Shown piece by piece: positions 3,086 to 38,339 of a stretch of DNA of 64,000 bases. Position 1 is the stretch's first letter; each line of letters opens with the position of its first letter. Source of the stretch: Flavobacteriaceae bacterium LYZ1037 (GTDB taxonomy: Bacteria; Bacteroidota; Bacteroidia; Flavobacteriales; Flavobacteriaceae); contig QFWS01000005.1 in assembly GCA_003144015.1 (NCBI GenBank), positions 124,001-188,000 on the forward strand, read 5' to 3'. The position numbers and the translations under genes were made by a program. The notes under the pieces were generated by a model. That model searched no databases. It was not told the origin of the DNA and saw only the letters and a program-made list of their open reading frames with translations.

Positions 3086-4129
3086 ATGAAAAAAAATCTA
3101 TTATTAATAACAGTATTGATCCTTGGAGGATTATCTGTTAGTGCTACAACTACCAACAAACCAAGCCACGTTGATAATGCAACAACTTTGAGAGGTTACG
3201 GTAATTCTTTCATATTTGTTGAAAATGGCGTAGAATTTTCCATTTTTCCAGATGGCCAATTCGATTTTTATATGCCATCTTATGGACCTAACGTAAACGT
3301 GTCTGCCCCAGGAATTAGCATCAGTTTTAATTCTGGTTATGATTATAATCCGTTTTTACAATACGATGAGTTTGGTGCCATTATTCAAGTGGAACATGTG
3401 CCAGTTTATTACGATTATTATGGGCGCGTAAGTCAAATTGGTAACGTATTTATAAACTATAATAGTTTTGGTTATGTAACACGTATTGGAGGTCTTTATA
3501 TTCATTACAACCCATATAGACGATATTCTCATTATACGGGATTCATCAATGCTTATAATCCGTATTATGTTTATAGACCTTGGCATACTTACTATAGAGT
3601 TCCTGCCTATAACCATTGTGTGGTTTATAACAAACCTTACAGAAAATATTATAAACCTGTAAGATATACATATGCCAAACCTTATGCTAATAATTACAGA
3701 CGTACAACTGCTGTTGCAAGTAGAAGAGGTACGACAGTAACTAGACGAAGTGAGTTAGCTACAAGACCTACTAAGTCAAATAATATCTCTAGACAAGATG
3801 TAAGACGAGATGTAGGGACTGTAAAACCAAGAACTAGAAATCAGGTAGCTACTAAACCCAATAGATCTGAGAATATTTACAGATCACGTGAAAGTTCAAA
3901 AATGAACACGTCTAGAGTAAATAGTCGAGAAAATACTAAATCTAGAAAAAGTTCGACAGTTAAGTCTAGTCCTGTTGCTACTAAACTAAGAACGCAAACT
4001 AGAGACCATAGTAAAACAAGAGTTGTAAAAAATAATGCTCCTGAAAGAAAACCAAAGACTTTAAATAATCGTACATATAATAAGAGTAACAACAGACAAG
4101 TTGCTTCAAACACAAGAAACAAAAGATAA
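3086..4129 (+). CDS. Secreted repeat protein with basic C-terminal tail
   Basis: I do not recognise a named family. The ATG at 3086 is preferred over an in-frame TTG at 3020 because it opens directly on a signal peptide ending near Ala20. Residues 93-140 hold three tandem 16-residue repeats, each starting Tyr-Asp/Asn and with Gly at the fifth position (starts Y93, Y109, Y125). A Tyr-rich stretch follows to about 205. The last 140 residues are rich in Arg, Lys, Ser, Thr and Asn and very basic, likely disordered. The parts suggest a small beta-structured exported domain with a tail that could bind polyanions such as polysaccharide or DNA. That role is inference. Confidence 0.75.
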   Translation: MKKNLLLITVLILGGLSVSATTTNKPSHVDNATTLRGYGNSFIFVENGVEFSIFPDGQFDFYMPSYGPNVNVSAPGISISFNSGYDYNPFLQYDEFGAIIQVEHVPVYYDYYGRVSQIGNVFINYNSFGYVTRIGGLYIHYNPYRRYSHYTGFINAYNPYYVYRPWHTYYRVPAYNHCVVYNKPYRKYYKPVRYTYAKPYANNYRRTTAVASRRGTTVTRRSELATRPTKSNNISRQDVRRDVGTVKPRTRNQVATKPNRSENIYRSRESSKMNTSRVNSRENTKSRKSSTVKSSPVATKLRTQTRDHSKTRVVKNNAPERKPKTLNNRTYNKSNNRQVASNTRNKR

Positions 4130-32482: not shown

Positions 32483-34114
32483 TTAAGCAACCACACTTAA
32501 TTTTTCTTCAACTTTATTATCTTCCAAATCAATTTTAAATTGGTTCGATGTGTTTTTCTCACCTCCTGCTTTTAAAGCTTTATCTCCTGCAAAGAAACCT
32601 TTATGGTCGTCCCCCAAATCAGATCCAGCCATACGTTGATGTTTTACACAAGAAACCCCTTTACGAATTTCCTGTCTTTGAACACCTTTAACGTAAGCTA
32701 ACATGCCTTTGTCACCAAAATAATCTACTGTAAGATCATTCATATGAAGCGCTGTTGTGTGGTAAGTTGGCAACGTTATTAAATGATGAAAAATTCCAGC
32801 TTCTCTTGCAGCATCTTTTTGAAAAGTCTTAATTTTTTCATCAGCACGAAAGCATAATTCTGAATCATCATATTGTGCATCCATTAAATTATTTCTATCG
32901 TAAGCAGTCATGTTCTCTCCTTCATTTAACATGTCCTCATATGCTTGATTACGGAAATTTAAGGTCCAATTAAATGAAGGTGAATTATTATAAACCAATT
33001 TAGCATTAGGCACCACTTCTTTAACTCTATTTACCATATGGGCAATTTGTTTCACATTTGGTGTTGGTGTTTCTATCCATAGTAAATCTGCGCCATTTTG
33101 AAGACTTGTAATGCAATCTAATACAACACGATCTATATTAGAACCATCTTTAAATTTATACAAACCATTGGCCAATCTTACAGGACGAACCAATTTACCT
33201 TTTCTTTTAAGAAGCACGTCATCTTCTTTGGCATCTTCTATAGCAACTTCTTCAGCTTCCACAAAAGCCAAATATTGCGATGCTAAATCTCCAGGTTCTT
33301 GACTAACTGGTAACTTTTGTGTTAAACCAGCTCCTTCTGAATCTGTTCTTGCAACTATAATTCCATCTTCCACGCCTAACTCTAAAAACGCATATCTAAT
33401 AGCATTAATTTTTGCTAAATAATCTTCGTGAGGTACGGTTACCTTACCATCTTGATGACCACATTGTTTGGCGTCTGAAACTTGATTTTCAATTTGAATA
33501 GCACAAGCACCAGCTTCAATCATTTTTTTAGTTAATAAATAGGTAGCTTCTTCATTCCCAAACCCTGCATCAATATCTGCTATAATTGGAACAATATGTG
33601 TTTCAAAATTATCAATTTGGTCTTGCACATCTTCGCCGTTTTCAAGTCTTTTAAACAAATCGTTTAATTCGATGGCATCTGCTTGACGTAAAAAATCATA
33701 AATTTCTTTAATTAATGATGGAACAGCTGTTTTCTCATGCATTGATTGATCTGGTAAAGGACCAAATTCTGAACGTAATGCAGCAACCATCCAACCAGAA
33801 AGATACAAGTATTTCTTGTTAGTTGTTTTATGATGCTTTTTAACAGCAATCATTTTTTGTTGAGCCACAAAACCATGCCAACAACCTAGAGATTGCGTGT
33901 ATTTAGAAGAATCTGCATCATATTCTGCCATATCTTTCCTCATAATAGCTGCTGTGTATTTTGCAATATCCAGGCCTGTTTTAAAACGATTCTGAGTAAC
34001 CATTCTGGCGGCACTTTTTGGATTTATAGTACTCCAAGTGTTTCCATACTTTTCTTTAAGATTTCTTACAGTTTGTAAGGCTGAATGATAATTACTTTGT
34101 CCTAAATTTTTCAT
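32483..34114 (-). CDS. aceA: Isocitrate lyase
   Basis: A 543-residue enzyme of the glyoxylate shunt that splits isocitrate into succinate and glyoxylate. The catalytic Cys is in AKQCGHQDGK (about 211-220), and other family blocks are IVARTDSEGAGL, PIIADIDAGFGN and NNSPSFNW. The KQCGH form and length match the longer bacterial subclass seen in Pseudomonas. It follows aceB on the same strand across a 72-bp gap that holds a strong hairpin. Confidence 0.95.
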   Translation of the reverse strand: MKNLGQSNYHSALQTVRNLKEKYGNTWSTINPKSAARMVTQNRFKTGLDIAKYTAAIMRKDMAEYDADSSKYTQSLGCWHGFVAQQKMIAVKKHHKTTNKKYLYLSGWMVAALRSEFGPLPDQSMHEKTAVPSLIKEIYDFLRQADAIELNDLFKRLENGEDVQDQIDNFETHIVPIIADIDAGFGNEEATYLLTKKMIEAGACAIQIENQVSDAKQCGHQDGKVTVPHEDYLAKINAIRYAFLELGVEDGIIVARTDSEGAGLTQKLPVSQEPGDLASQYLAFVEAEEVAIEDAKEDDVLLKRKGKLVRPVRLANGLYKFKDGSNIDRVVLDCITSLQNGADLLWIETPTPNVKQIAHMVNRVKEVVPNAKLVYNNSPSFNWTLNFRNQAYEDMLNEGENMTAYDRNNLMDAQYDDSELCFRADEKIKTFQKDAAREAGIFHHLITLPTYHTTALHMNDLTVDYFGDKGMLAYVKGVQRQEIRKGVSCVKHQRMAGSDLGDDHKGFFAGDKALKAGGEKNTSNQFKIDLEDNKVEEKLSVVA

Positions 34115-34186: not shown

Positions 34187-35785
34187 TTATAAGTACTGAT
34201 AAGCTGATTTGGTTAAAAATTCTTCGAATTTATCCGATAAAACGAATTTGTCAAATAATTTTATAGCCAATTCAAATTTTGTGTTTTTAATATTTTGTTC
34301 ACCAACTTCCGCAAGTATCTTTTCAATTTCCTCATCAAAAATGGACATATAAAGTTCGATGTTAAATTTTCTTCCATCTTCCAATTCCACTTCATTTTTA
34401 AGCCATTGCCAAATTTGAGTTCTTGAAATTTCTGCCGTTGCAGCATCTTCCATTAAGTTATATAGAGCTACAGCGCCATGACCTCTTAACCAAGCTTCAA
34501 TGTAAAGAATGGCAACATTTATATTTTTTCTAACTCCTTCTTCAGTTATAGTTCCAATTGGAAGCTCTACTAAATCTTCTTTAGTTACTTGTACATCATC
34601 TCTTGTAATATGTAACTGATTGTCTGTAGGCATATATTTATTAAATTCTTGCATGGCTATATTTACCAATGCTGGATGTGCCACCCAAGTGCCATCATGC
34701 CCATTTTTAACTTCTCTTTCTTTATCTACTCTAACTTTTTCTAAAGCCATAATATTGGCATATTCATCATTCTTGATTGGAATTTGTGCAGCCATACCAC
34801 CAATGGCTAAGATTCCTCTCTTATGGCAACGCTGAATGACTAACTTTGAATAGGTATCCATAAATGGAGAAGTCATAGTAACTTGATCTCTATTTGGAAC
34901 TATAAAATTTGGATGATTTCTAAACTTTTTAATGTAAGAGAAAATATAATCCCATCTGCCACAATTTAATCCTACGATATGGTCTTTCAATTCATAAATA
35001 ATTTCATCTAATTGAAAACTAGCAGTAATGGTTTCTATTAAAACGGTAGCTTTAAAAGTTCCATTAGGCACATTTAAATAGTCTTGTGCAAATTCAAATA
35101 CATCGTTCCACCAACGAGCTTCTAAATAATGTTCAAGCTTTGGAAGGTAAAAATAAGGCGCAGTATTATTATTTAATAATGTTTTTGTATTATGAAAAAC
35201 ATACAACCCAAAGTCTAATAAGCTCCCAGAAATTTCTTCATTATTAATTAAAAGATGCTTTTCATTTAAATGCAACCCTCTTGGACGAACTAATAAAACA
35301 GCCGTTTCTTTATTTAACTCGTATGATTTATGTTTTTTTGAATCGAAAACCGATATGGTTTTGATATTAGCATCTATCAGGTTTTTCTGCCCTTCTAACG
35401 TATTTTTCCAGGTTGGCGCATTGCTGTCTTCCAAATCTGCCATAAAAGTTTTAGCTCCAGAATTAAGTGCATTAATAATCATTTTTCTATTTACTGGACC
35501 TGTTATTTCAACACGTCGATCTAATAAATCTTTTGGAATAGAACCAGCTTTCCAATCAGATTTTCTTATATCTTGAGTTTCAGAAGGAAAGTCTGGAAAA
35601 ACACCTTGGTCGAAAATTGCCTGTTGCTTGTTTCTGGAATCTAACAATTCTAATCTTTTTAAATTAAAAGCATTATGTAATGCAATTAAAAAATCCAAAG
35701 CTTCATCGGTTAAAATCTCTGGATAATAATTTGTAGCTTCTTTAGCAAATTGAAATTTTGGTTGTATTAATAGTGTGTTTTCCAT
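34187..35785 (-). CDS. aceB: Malate synthase A
   Basis: A 532-residue enzyme that joins glyoxylate and acetyl-CoA to malate, the second step of the glyoxylate shunt. Active-site blocks are TFMADLEDSNAPTWKN (about 124-139), LVRPRGLH and LNCGRWDYIFSYIK (about 270-283), with the catalytic Arg in RPRGLH and Asp near HGAVALYNLMEDAATAE. The length fits the A isoform. It is first in an aceB-aceA operon and is divergent from a RamB/ScfR-like regulator. Confidence 0.95.
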   Translation of the reverse strand: MENTLLIQPKFQFAKEATNYYPEILTDEALDFLIALHNAFNLKRLELLDSRNKQQAIFDQGVFPDFPSETQDIRKSDWKAGSIPKDLLDRRVEITGPVNRKMIINALNSGAKTFMADLEDSNAPTWKNTLEGQKNLIDANIKTISVFDSKKHKSYELNKETAVLLVRPRGLHLNEKHLLINNEEISGSLLDFGLYVFHNTKTLLNNNTAPYFYLPKLEHYLEARWWNDVFEFAQDYLNVPNGTFKATVLIETITASFQLDEIIYELKDHIVGLNCGRWDYIFSYIKKFRNHPNFIVPNRDQVTMTSPFMDTYSKLVIQRCHKRGILAIGGMAAQIPIKNDEYANIMALEKVRVDKEREVKNGHDGTWVAHPALVNIAMQEFNKYMPTDNQLHITRDDVQVTKEDLVELPIGTITEEGVRKNINVAILYIEAWLRGHGAVALYNLMEDAATAEISRTQIWQWLKNEVELEDGRKFNIELYMSIFDEEIEKILAEVGEQNIKNTKFELAIKLFDKFVLSDKFEEFLTKSAYQYL

Positions 35786-35806
35786 GTTGTTTATTTTTTA
35801 CACTTA

Positions 35807-35837
35807 CAATATTAAAACAAACATTTTAAAAAAACAA
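35807..35837 (-). promoter_or_regulatory. Promoter of aceB-aceA
   Basis: On the minus strand TTG (35835-35837), 20 bp, then TAATATTG (35807-35814), close to TTG-N17to23-TAnnTTTG with one -7 mismatch. The GCGAACGTTCGC palindrome touches the upstream edge of the TTG. A bound regulator there could contact RNA polymerase as an activator. Confidence 0.55.
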
Positions 35838-35885
35838 GCGAACGTTCGCAAAATATTAATATTCGCAATAAATACAAGTTCGCAA
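35838..35885. promoter_or_regulatory. Operator array of the glyoxylate-shunt regulator
   Basis: TTCGCAA occurs on the plus strand at 35845, 35862 and 35879, exactly 17 bp apart. The first copy is half of the 12-bp palindrome GCGAACGTTCGC (35838-35849). The motif resembles the TTTGCAA core bound by RamB of Corynebacterium. The right copy lies 8 bp before the regulator's own -7 box and the palindrome touches the aceB promoter, so one array can govern both genes. Confidence 0.7.
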
Positions 35886-35892
35886 AAAAAGT

Positions 35893-35900
35893 TATATTTG
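35893..35900 (+). promoter_or_regulatory. -7 promoter box of the shunt regulator
   Basis: TATATTTG matches TAnnTTTG. The ATG of the regulator is only 5 bp later, so the transcript may be leaderless or nearly so. Confidence 0.5.
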
Positions 35901-35904
35901 TTAC

Positions 35905-37380
35905 ATGGAAGAAGAATATATTAAACTAATATTTGGTTTAAAACTAAAGCAGAAGCGTACTGAAAAGAATTTATCTCTTTTTGGATTATCTAAACTTACT
36001 GGTTTATCAAAATCCTATTTAAATGAAATAGAAAAAGGAAAAAAATATCCTAAACCTGATAAAATAGCTATTCTTTCAGAAAAATTAGATGTTCCTTACG
36101 ATCAAATGGTGTCTTTAAAACTGGATAAAAACCTAGCTCCTATTGGTGAGATTTTACAGTCTAAAATTTTAAAAGAAATTCCTTTGGAACTCTTTGGTAT
36201 TAAAGAGAGTAATTTAATAGATATTGTTGCAAATGCTCCAGCGAAAGTCAATGCCTTTATTAGTACCATTATCGAGATTGCACAGAATTACAATTTTAGT
36301 CGTGAGAGCTTTTATCTAGCTTCTGTACGTTCTTTTCAAGAGGCAAATAATAATTATTTTGATGAAATAGAACAATGCGTTGTAACATTTGCTAAAGCTT
36401 ATCATATAGATTTAACAAAATCTATTACATCCAATGAGCTTGAAGAAATTCTCATTGAAGAATTTGGATATACAATCAATCAAACAGAACTAGACAAGCA
36501 TCAAGCTTTAGATAATTTACGATCGGTTTATGTTCCCAAAACCAAAACATTACTCTTAGCAAGCAGAATGGATGAAGCTCAAAGAACCTTTATTTACGCT
36601 AAAGAATTAGCTTATAATTTTTTAGACTATAAAGACCGTCTTTATACTTTTTCTTGGATTAAATTTGAAAATTTCGATCAGGTTCTTAATAATTTTTACG
36701 CTTCATATTTTGCAGGAGCTTTAATTTTACCCAAAGTTAGTTTAACAGAAAAACTAAATACGTTATTTGCTAAAAAAGCCTTTGACGAAACATTATTTTT
36801 AGATATTATTCAATCTTTTAATGCCTCTCCAGAATCTTTTTATCAGCGTTTAACAAATATTTTGCCAAAAGAATTTAATATTCAAAATTTATTCTTTTTA
36901 CGATTTACACATCGTGCTGGATCAGAAAGATTTCAACTTAAAAAAGAATTACATTTATCGCATCAACACTCACCTCATGCCAATGAAACTAATGAACATT
37001 ATTGCAGACGCTGGGTTTCTTTAAATGTTTTAAAAGAAATAAGCAATTCAAAAAAGGCACATATTTTCGATATGCAGATCTCCAATTATCCAAGTGATAA
37101 TATGAGTTATTTGGTGTTGTCTTCAGCTACTAAAGATCCATTTAGAGAGCTTCATTATAGAAGCATAAGCATTGGTTTATTGATTGATAAACAGCTTAAA
37201 AGAAAATTACAATTTTTAGGAAATTCTAAAATTAAGCAGCAAATAGTTGGAGTGACCTGCGAACGTTGTGCTATTAAAGATTGTCAAGTACGACAAGTTC
37301 CTGCCATTAGATTAGAACATAAAGCAAAAAACAAACAAATTGAATTAGTTGTTGAAGATTTAAAAAACCGATTCAGTTAG
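35905..37380 (+). CDS. RamB/ScfR-like regulator of acetate or fatty-acid use
   Basis: A 491-residue DNA-binding protein. Residues 10-66 are an XRE helix-turn-helix (LSKLTGLSKSYLNEIEKGK). Residues 200-245 look like an ImmA/IrrE domain, but where the peptidase has HELGH it reads AKELAYN (232-238), so the metal His residues are lost and it is likely a ligand sensor, not a protease. The C terminus has three Cys (452, 455, 460) in CERCAIKDC. This layout is that of RamB and ScfR, which control glyoxylate or propionyl-CoA genes. Divergence from aceB-aceA and the shared operators fit. Whether it represses or activates is not known. Confidence 0.8.
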   Translation: MEEEYIKLIFGLKLKQKRTEKNLSLFGLSKLTGLSKSYLNEIEKGKKYPKPDKIAILSEKLDVPYDQMVSLKLDKNLAPIGEILQSKILKEIPLELFGIKESNLIDIVANAPAKVNAFISTIIEIAQNYNFSRESFYLASVRSFQEANNNYFDEIEQCVVTFAKAYHIDLTKSITSNELEEILIEEFGYTINQTELDKHQALDNLRSVYVPKTKTLLLASRMDEAQRTFIYAKELAYNFLDYKDRLYTFSWIKFENFDQVLNNFYASYFAGALILPKVSLTEKLNTLFAKKAFDETLFLDIIQSFNASPESFYQRLTNILPKEFNIQNLFFLRFTHRAGSERFQLKKELHLSHQHSPHANETNEHYCRRWVSLNVLKEISNSKKAHIFDMQISNYPSDNMSYLVLSSATKDPFRELHYRSISIGLLIDKQLKRKLQFLGNSKIKQQIVGVTCERCAIKDCQVRQVPAIRLEHKAKNKQIELVVEDLKNRFS

Positions 37381-37412: not shown

Positions 37413-38339
37413 ATGAAATTCAAAATTTTCGTAATATTAATAGTCACAACTGTTTTTTTAGGCTGCAAAAAAGACACTAAAGAACCTGTTGTAGTACCTG
37501 AAAATATCATTGTAAAAGATTCAGTTCCTCTACTAAAGGACATAGATTCCATTATTGAAGATTCCATTATCATTGAAGAGCCCGTAATAATACCGACAAA
37601 ACCAGTTAAAAAGAAATCTGTAGCTAAACCTAAAAAAGCAGTACCAACAAGTAAGAATAGTTATACTAAAAATGATATTAAATTTACTCCAATTGAACAC
37701 GCAACACTTGTAATAGAATTTAACAACACGATCATTTACGTGGATCCTGTTGGTGGAAAAGAAGCTTTTAAAAACTTTAAATCTCCAAATTTTATCTTAA
37801 TCACAGATATTCATGGCGATCATTTAGATACGGAAACACTTGAAGCTATAAACACTCCAAACACACAAATAATTGGACCTAAAGCTGTAAAAGCAAAACT
37901 ATCTGCTGATTTATTAAAAAATTACAACACTATATTTAGTGGTATAAGTCGTGGGTTTTCTACTTCTAAAATGTCGCTAGATGTTGAAGGTGTAGCCATG
38001 TATAACATTCGTCCAGAGGCCAAAAAATACCATCCACAATCGCGTGGAGTTGGTTATATCCTGAGTTTAAACAATAAACGTATTTATATTTCTGGTGATA
38101 CCGAAGACACTTTTGAAATGCGGCATCTAAAAAACATTGATATGGCATTTGTCTGTATGAATTTACCATATACCATGTCTGTTGAAAGTGCTGCTAGTGC
38201 AGTATTAGATTTTAAACCTAAACAAGTATTTCCATACCACTACAAAGGAACAGGTGGTTTTAGTGATGTTAAAAAGTTTAAAGCCCTAGTAAATAGAAGT
38301 AATAAAAGCATTGAGGTTGTTCAACTAGATTGGTATTAA
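37413..38339 (+). CDS. Lipoprotein with metallo-beta-lactamase fold (UlaG-like)
   Basis: A 308-residue exported protein. A lipobox FLGC sits at residues 16-19, then a Pro/Val/Lys-rich linker to about residue 85. The metallo-hydrolase domain follows: TDIHGDHLD (about 130-138) holds the HxD-H metal site, ISGDTEDT (near 228) gives the bridging Asp, and FPYHYKG (near 275) the last His. The nearest type is the UlaG-like group. The substrate is unknown. It starts 32 bp after the regulator gene. Confidence 0.8.
   Translation: MKFKIFVILIVTTVFLGCKKDTKEPVVVPENIIVKDSVPLLKDIDSIIEDSIIIEEPVIIPTKPVKKKSVAKPKKAVPTSKNSYTKNDIKFTPIEHATLVIEFNNTIIYVDPVGGKEAFKNFKSPNFILITDIHGDHLDTETLEAINTPNTQIIGPKAVKAKLSADLLKNYNTIFSGISRGFSTSKMSLDVEGVAMYNIRPEAKKYHPQSRGVGYILSLNNKRIYISGDTEDTFEMRHLKNIDMAFVCMNLPYTMSVESAASAVLDFKPKQVFPYHYKGTGGFSDVKKFKALVNRSNKSIEVVQLDWY

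Follow-up and report, generated by a model that had tools for sequence, protein, structure and literature searches.

RamB of Corynebacterium glutamicum is a regulator of acetate and glyoxylate metabolism that acts mainly as a repressor and has the same architecture as the regulator considered here. The M78 domain found in such proteins is part of the ScfR/IsaR family of iron-sulphur acyl-CoA regulators. A tandem operator logic is known from the C-proteins of restriction-modification systems, such as C.BclI and C.AhdI, whose operators consist of two palindromes and not of a palindrome with half-sites.

The closest described divergent pair is that of Paracoccus denitrificans. RamB of this organism, a class 2 member of the ScfR family, is encoded divergently from the malate synthase and isocitrate lyase genes and activates ms-icl, for which it needs both of two boxes (PMC10370305). 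The boxes are nearly identical, are separated by an 18-bp spacer, and measure ∼14 bp each by fragment arithmetic; CoA esters shift the protein from a tetramer to a dimer (PMC10370305). The RamB of Mycobacterium tuberculosis is a repressor of icl1 and reportedly also of the gene that encodes it (PMC3420887). A further relative from that organism, PrpR (MccR), is also encoded divergently from its target operon and has an Fe-S cluster liganded by Cys363 and a C-x2-C-x4-C motif, a motif common to its clade (PMC3420887, PMC6765138). Its DNA motif TTTGCAAA, with the imperfect TTTGCgAA, is close to TTCGCAA; it differs from the system described below in its two 8-bp palindromes placed one base apart, its methylcitrate target genes, and its CoA-bound tetramer (PMC3420887, PMC6765138). 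In the open-licence literature, searched by titles and the starts of abstracts, nothing on point appeared for a Bacteroidota RamB, for the operator treated here, or for glyoxylate regulation in flavobacteria, and no paper dealing with the control of this shunt in Bacteroidota came up.

The window, the whole stretch of 64,000 nucleotides analysed from Flavobacteriaceae bacterium LYZ1037, contains a regulator gene divergent from aceB and aceA, as in Paracoccus. The gap between them holds a real, conserved array of the RamB/ScfR kind. This array is probably the operator of the adjacent regulator, which would activate aceBA from a class-II position and restrain its own gene. The anatomy of the array and its conservation are established by the comparison of sequences, from which we infer binding, direction, and ligand. 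Set beside the Paracoccus operator (a comparison made without the letters of the Paracoccus boxes), the array consists of a palindrome plus lone half-sites at steps of 17 to 18 bp, and the accessible account of that system contains no pyc target and, in its main text, no Bacteroid- or Flavobacter- organism (PMC10370305). The analysis offers a candidate regulator together with a candidate operator whose geometry recurs through the phylum, and it adds pyruvate carboxylase as a second candidate target; the route by which the cell replenishes its central metabolism may thus be decided by a single protein.

Anatomy of the Array

TTCGCAA occurs three times between aceB and the regulator gene, at steps of exactly 17 bp (Table 1), and the copy at 35845 supplies the right-hand half of GCGAACGTTCGC, an exact 12-bp palindrome. 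The first-pass annotation had described this period, a palindrome abutting the aceB -33 TTG, and a last copy lying 8 bp before the -7 box of the regulator; direct reading of the sequence confirms each of these points, TATATTTG starting 8 positions past the end of the last TTCGCAA (7 bases between). Its suggestion that one array serves both genes holds for the sharing of the array by aceB and the regulator, whereas the signs attached to it, activation of the one and repression of the other, derive from the position of the sites.

Table 1. Features of the aceB-regulator locus (window coordinates)
Feature	Position	Strand	Basis
Isocitrate lyase of the aceA type, 543 aa, follows aceB	32483..34114	-	NCBIfam NF005074, 993 bits (cut-off 446); ORF
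aceB, malate synthase A, 532 aa	34187..35785	-	TIGR01344, 768.9 bits (cut-off 594.5)
aceB -7 box TAATATTG, Bacteroidota type, one change from consensus	35807..35814	-	Sequence
aceB -33 TTG, 20 bp from -7 box, abuts palindrome	35835..35837	-	Sequence
Core operator AGCGAACGTTCGCA (predicted)	35837..35850	.	Perfect 12-bp palindrome 35838-35849 inside
Half-site 1, TTCGCAA	35845..35851	+	Right palindrome half; sequence
Half-site 2, TTCGCAA, +17	35862..35868	+	Sequence; at most 1/6 mismatches to TTCGCT in 69/78 loci
Half-site 3, TTCGCAA, +34	35879..35885	+	Sequence; at most 1/7 mismatches in 76/78 loci
Regulator -7 box TATATTTG	35893..35900	+	Sequence; T in 76/77 and A in 72/77 loci at +14/+15 of half-site 3
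RamB/ScfR-like XRE regulator, 491 aa, divergent from aceB	35905..37380	+	Pfam HTH_3, Peptidase_M78, sub-threshold ScfRs; Cys367 and C452-x2-C455-x4-C460

TTCGCAA alone is not rare, with 12 copies in the 64-kb window against 8.29 expected. The 12-bp palindrome at a tolerance of two mismatches is likewise unremarkable by itself (one in the window, 0.32 expected, and 27 of 100 shuffles reach one); the copy in the window, however, is exact. Pairs of TTCGCAA with 8 to 12 bases between them are confined to the aceB gap in the whole 3.19-Mb genome (two overlapping matches), and the reversed-pattern control gives one match in the same genome. None of 200,000 mononucleotide shuffles of the 119-bp gap produced a 7-mer with three or more G/C repeated three times at equal steps. 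A chance origin of the array was rejected on the gap shuffles, the genome count, and conservation, the last of which is a stronger proof than the statistics of the letters. An RNA element was also considered and rejected, as the stretch 35700-36000 has no Rfam match at gathering score.

The Bacteroidota -7 consensus is TAnnTTTG. If the aceB box sits at the location usual for boxes of this type, the centre of the palindrome falls near -41 of the aceB promoter, where class-II activators are placed. A scan for sigma-70 promoters gave one minus-strand match against 0.6 by chance, and the Bacteroidota -33/-7 type was used instead. In the regulator promoter, half-site 3 occupies the interval that separates the expected -33 and -7 regions.

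A mode of action can be proposed for this arrangement. A dimer of the regulator, seated on the palindrome immediately ahead of the -33 element of aceB, would recruit RNA polymerase to aceBA. More subunits of the same oligomer would extend along the direct half-sites at their 17- to 18-bp steps, and the occupation of half-site 3 inside the regulator promoter would limit synthesis of the regulator. The four half-sites, two in the palindrome and two beyond it, match a tetramer in number, a correspondence offered as a guess. The likely signal is acyl-CoA, which would be read via the Fe-S C-terminal part of the protein. In part of the genus, the regulator would also occupy a palindrome that spans the start region of pyc, and pyc should thereby be repressed; during acetate-type growth, the glyoxylate shunt would then be on and pyruvate carboxylase down. 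Activation is assigned to aceB because its palindrome is placed ahead of the -33 element, and repression to pyc and the regulator gene because the sites there overlap the start region or lie inside the promoter. A repressor, too, could act through a palindrome placed upstream of -33, which counts against the activator reading, as do the repression of icl1 by RamB in M. tuberculosis and the mainly repressing role of RamB in C. glutamicum.

The Regulator Protein

The regulator has an N-terminal XRE helix-turn-helix (PF01381, 39.4 bits, cut-off 23), found in 30 of 30 members at an E value of 0.001, and an M78 (IrrE-like) middle domain (PF06114, 25.6 bits, cut-off 22), found in 28 of 30 at the same value. 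The ScfRs C-terminal domain (PF09856) is matched at an E value of 2.7e-4 but with 21.3 bits, under the cut-off of 24; 25 of 30 members match it at an E value of 0.001. Against the RamB equivalog NF038139, the protein reaches 53.9 bits over residues 11 to 471, far below the cut-off of 700, which sets it apart from RamB of C. glutamicum. The low scores against the RamB equivalog and the Pfam ScfRs domain count against the proposed assignment; the link to RamB, which the first-pass annotation drew from the likeness of the motif to TTTGCAA, stands as a relationship in kind.

Cys367, Cys452, Cys455, and Cys460 stand unchanged in every one of the 80 rows compared, the window and 79 loci (L079 was left out, its start not being found intact), and C-x2-C-x4-C is present in all 29 phylum-sample loci L181 to L209. 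This set of four cysteines, shared in kind with PrpR, corresponds to the Fe-S ligands of the ScfR/IsaR clade and points to a putative cluster. The C-proteins C.BclI and C.AhdI are among the best solved helix-turn-helix matches to the regulator by sequence; they resemble it in this domain alone and have no sensor domain. No PrpR chain is found among the regulator's sequence matches to solved structures.

Conservation in Close Relatives

The best 80 of 196 stretches encoding a relative, picked by protein and not by DNA motif, were compared. aceB lies divergently upstream of the regulator in 78 of them, and the exact 12-bp palindrome is found within the upstream 180 bp in 77 as well as in the window. 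The palindrome of L079 is present but farther away, and L003 and L006 carry ACGAACGTTCGC instead; with these three left out, 78 gaps (the window and 77 loci) were aligned. The palindrome is invariant in all 78, with flanks extending it to AGCGAACGTTCGCT in 76. Retention of the repeats in relatives with the gene pair, on which the first-pass annotation had staked its reading beforehand, is thereby borne out, while its view of the TTCGCAA repeat as the core gives way to an invariant palindrome, AGCGAACGTTCGC(T), with copies 2 and 3 as lone half-sites.

Half-site 2 lies at +17 or +18 and half-site 3 at +34 to +36 in the aligned Flavobacteriaceae gaps. The column counts of the 78 gaps contain no conserved inverted partner for either, and a reading of both as degenerate dimer sites was rejected on these counts. 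In the sets preselected at no more than two mismatches, the C, G, and C of half-site 3 are conserved in 77 of 77 loci and those of half-site 2, within nearly A/T-only surroundings, in 72, 65, and 65 of 72. Among 71 scorable loci, the two steps are 18+18 in 36, 17+17 in 30, and mixed in 5, so that they are equal in 66. As proof of a rigid oligomer this equality was rejected, since correction for the tree leaves 4 independent pairs on starred branches with a median p of 0.5. A step of 17 bp had been called odd for simple dimer sites; it is not peculiar to this genome, as most of the Flavobacteriaceae loci read have a step of 17 or 18 bp and numerous loci from other orders and classes one of 17 to 19 bp. 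Sites made of two boxes are reported to be frequent in this regulator family (PMC10370305).

Half-site 3 starts ∼14 bp ahead of the regulator -7 box in most loci. The restraint of the regulator gene might take a biphasic form like that of the C-proteins, in which half-site 2, near -41, activates the regulator promoter and half-site 3 represses it at high dose. This would be a variant of the preferred explanation and not an alternative to it. Half-site 2 stands in most loci 31 to 32 bp ahead of the -7 box, a position that suits such a scheme, as does a regulator promoter in which no TTG stands at the -33 distance in the window and none is conserved across the aligned gaps. On the other hand, half-site 2 shows weaker conservation than the other two and the sequence does not distinguish the scheme from simple negative autoregulation, which leaves the biphasic form conceivable and rather doubtful.

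The phasing at the aceB promoter bears on a second possibility, that the regulator is an aceB repressor like classical RamB which binds the palindrome, spans the array, and shuts both divergent promoters until acyl-CoA releases it. A TAnnNTTG-like aceB -7 box was recognised in 101 of the 113 loci scanned, the script taking the box nearest 22; 9 of the 12 loci without one come from other orders or classes. In 88 of the 101 loci this box stands 23 bp from the palindrome, in 7 it stands 22 bp away, and in 6 it stands 19 to 20 bp away; in 82 of them CAA (the -33 TTG) adjoins the palindrome. The palindrome upstream of -33 leaves the core aceB promoter free, as class-II activators do, and 95 of the 101 boxes depart from TAnnTTTG, which fits a promoter needing help. 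Repression would agree with an array that spans both promoters, with the action of M. tuberculosis RamB on icl1 and on itself (PMC3420887), and with the proposal that RamB, as a tetramer, keeps the promoter blocked until its ligand arrives (PMC10370305). Against this, the closest described divergent ramB-ms pair needs RamB for expression (PMC10370305), and the repressor reading is unlikely beside activation of aceBA by the same protein.

Two observations concern the gene content of single loci. In the genome of Maribacter litoralis (G061, the genome of L027), an additional aceB-regulator pair (L166), likewise divergent, carries this palindrome as well. In L113 and L114, the isocitrate lyase beside aceB is only 28 to 30% identical to that of the window over the matched part, so that one malate synthase seems to be followed by either of two isocitrate lyase types.

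Distribution across the Bacteroidota

The regulator is encoded in 55 of 296 sampled genomes of the phylum, its own included (E value of 1e-30 or better), and the upstream stretches of all 54 other loci were read in two sets of 29 and 25. The palindrome is present with at most one mismatch in 10 positions in 51 of the 54 and exactly in 44, counts from loci that share descent and are not independent and in which a few G+C-rich rows may hold it by chance. It is absent at this tolerance from the upstream stretches of L201, L214, and L236. aceB lies divergently upstream in 26 of the 29 loci examined for it. In six distant loci (L217 to L220, L224, and L229), the regulator faces a gene read from its translation as acyl-CoA-synthetase-like, not aceB, and the palindrome is kept, which counts for the operator reading.

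In 32 loci of other orders and classes, TTCGC with at most one mismatch stands at +17 in 16, at +18 in 3, and at +19 in 4; mirror half-sites occur at -17, -18, and -19 in 3, 6, and 6, and each of the offsets 8 to 16, taken as a comparison, has 0 or 1 match. The phylum-sample loci of the same family or order have TTCGC at +17 in only 1 of 19, which counts against the proposed operator; some of these 19 have TTCGC-like matches at +25/26 (7 loci) or +34/35 (5 loci). A reading in which the regulator uses only the palindrome, and the TTCGCAA copies 2 and 3 belong to the promoter of its gene or arose there by chance, is improbable. It is favoured by this scarcity and by the want of conserved inverted partners for half-sites 2 and 3. 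Against it stand the conservation of the C, G, and C of both half-sites, those of half-site 2 amid nearly A/T-only sequence (in sets preselected at no more than two mismatches), and the +17 to +19 peak of the 32 loci outside the order. Loci L196 to L199, from a different family within the order, have a GCGAA half-site at +28 in place of the two direct half-sites.

Taken further, the operator reading leads to a tentative proposal, possible and some way short of likely: a Bacteroidota-wide operator grammar, composed of a AGCGAANNTTCGCT palindrome and outrigger half-sites at 17 to 19 bp, often with a total of four half-sites, may be read by an acyl-CoA-sensing tetramer. Exchange between tetramer and dimer would switch between bridging both promoters and activating one, and in part of the genus the system would be extended to a reciprocal switch between shunt and pyruvate carboxylase that outlives the loss of the shunt.

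Search for Further Sites

In 30 named genomes, 33 GCGAAYRTTCGC sites stand against 26 reversed-control matches, and 30 of the 33 are sites in aceB gaps. The other three are the second aceB-regulator pair of L166, a site inside a coding frame (L158), and one in G079. Forty genomes contain 11 AGCGAANNTTCGCT sites against 6 for the reversed control, 4 of them at pyc and 5 in aceB gaps; the sites in L115 and L122 have no match to the five query proteins in their surroundings. Near-matches at up to three mismatches in the window's own genome number 67, against 96 for the control, and among the seven near-match loci whose surroundings were listed, L085 lies inside a coding frame. A wider regulon was rejected on these counts, and the want of any sign of one counts against the operator explanation.

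A Candidate Pyruvate Carboxylase Site and Probable Loss of the Glyoxylate Shunt

The own genome carries AGCGAACATTCGCT, one change from the consensus, 27 bases ahead of the start codon of pyc, a pyruvate carboxylase gene by sequence reading (frames of 1,159 to 1,164 aa in three congeners). This candidate site lies one base behind the pyc -7 box TACTTTTG. The same 14 bp are found at pyc in G008, G009, and G011, which makes four genomes of the genus with the own, and reversed-control matches to the 14-bp site are absent from the eight genus genomes. G010 and G012 contain the regulator and aceBA and a pyc without the site. Outside the genus, where 30 genomes were searched and 15 had a pyc match at an E value of 1e-150, the site is absent from 12 of 12 pyc upstreams; its absence there and in G010 and G012 counts against the operator reading.

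G014 has AACGAATGTTCATT at the same place of pyc, a regulator match comprising only a 71-residue helix-turn-helix, and no aceB or aceA. AACGAATGTTCATT can be read as a decayed remnant of the pyc site, and such decay in a genome without a full regulator counts for the operator reading. G013, which is 75% complete, gives no match to the regulator, aceBA, or pyc. In the tree of pyc DNA, G010 and G012 branch outside the other five (89/96, with an open fork inside). The simplest story would be one gain of the site followed by decay where the regulator was lost; a loss in G010 and G012 is as possible.

G009 and G008 are the genomes of L003 (Xanthomarina gelatinilytica) and L006 (X. spongicola), respectively, by identical match values. 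Neither gives a match to aceB or aceA, and both keep a full-length regulator and the pyc site. In their regulator promoters, the right half of ACGAACGTTCGC occupies the usual place of half-site 3, 14 bp before the -7 box. An arginase-like neighbour, together with a GNAT gene in L003, now adjoins the regulator. A true loss of aceBA is likely in both because the synteny is closed, though drafts may miss genes. These genomes without aceBA keep the regulator, the site in its own promoter, and the pyc site, so the sites go with the regulator, which counts for the operator reading. Across these few genomes, a link between the pyc site and the presence of the regulator is evident from their gene content, and the genomes with a regulator and no aceBA suggest a rewiring from the shunt to pyruvate carboxylase.

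The two loci differ in their surroundings. Between the arginase-like gene and the regulator, L006 (positions 2240 to 2500) has no GNAT match, unlike L003, and the two shunt losses therefore have different left edges. Positions 4019 to 5788 of L006 contain two stretches in tandem that resemble the window's gene next after the regulator (37413-38339), a gene assigned a metallo-beta-lactamase fold from reading of the sequence.
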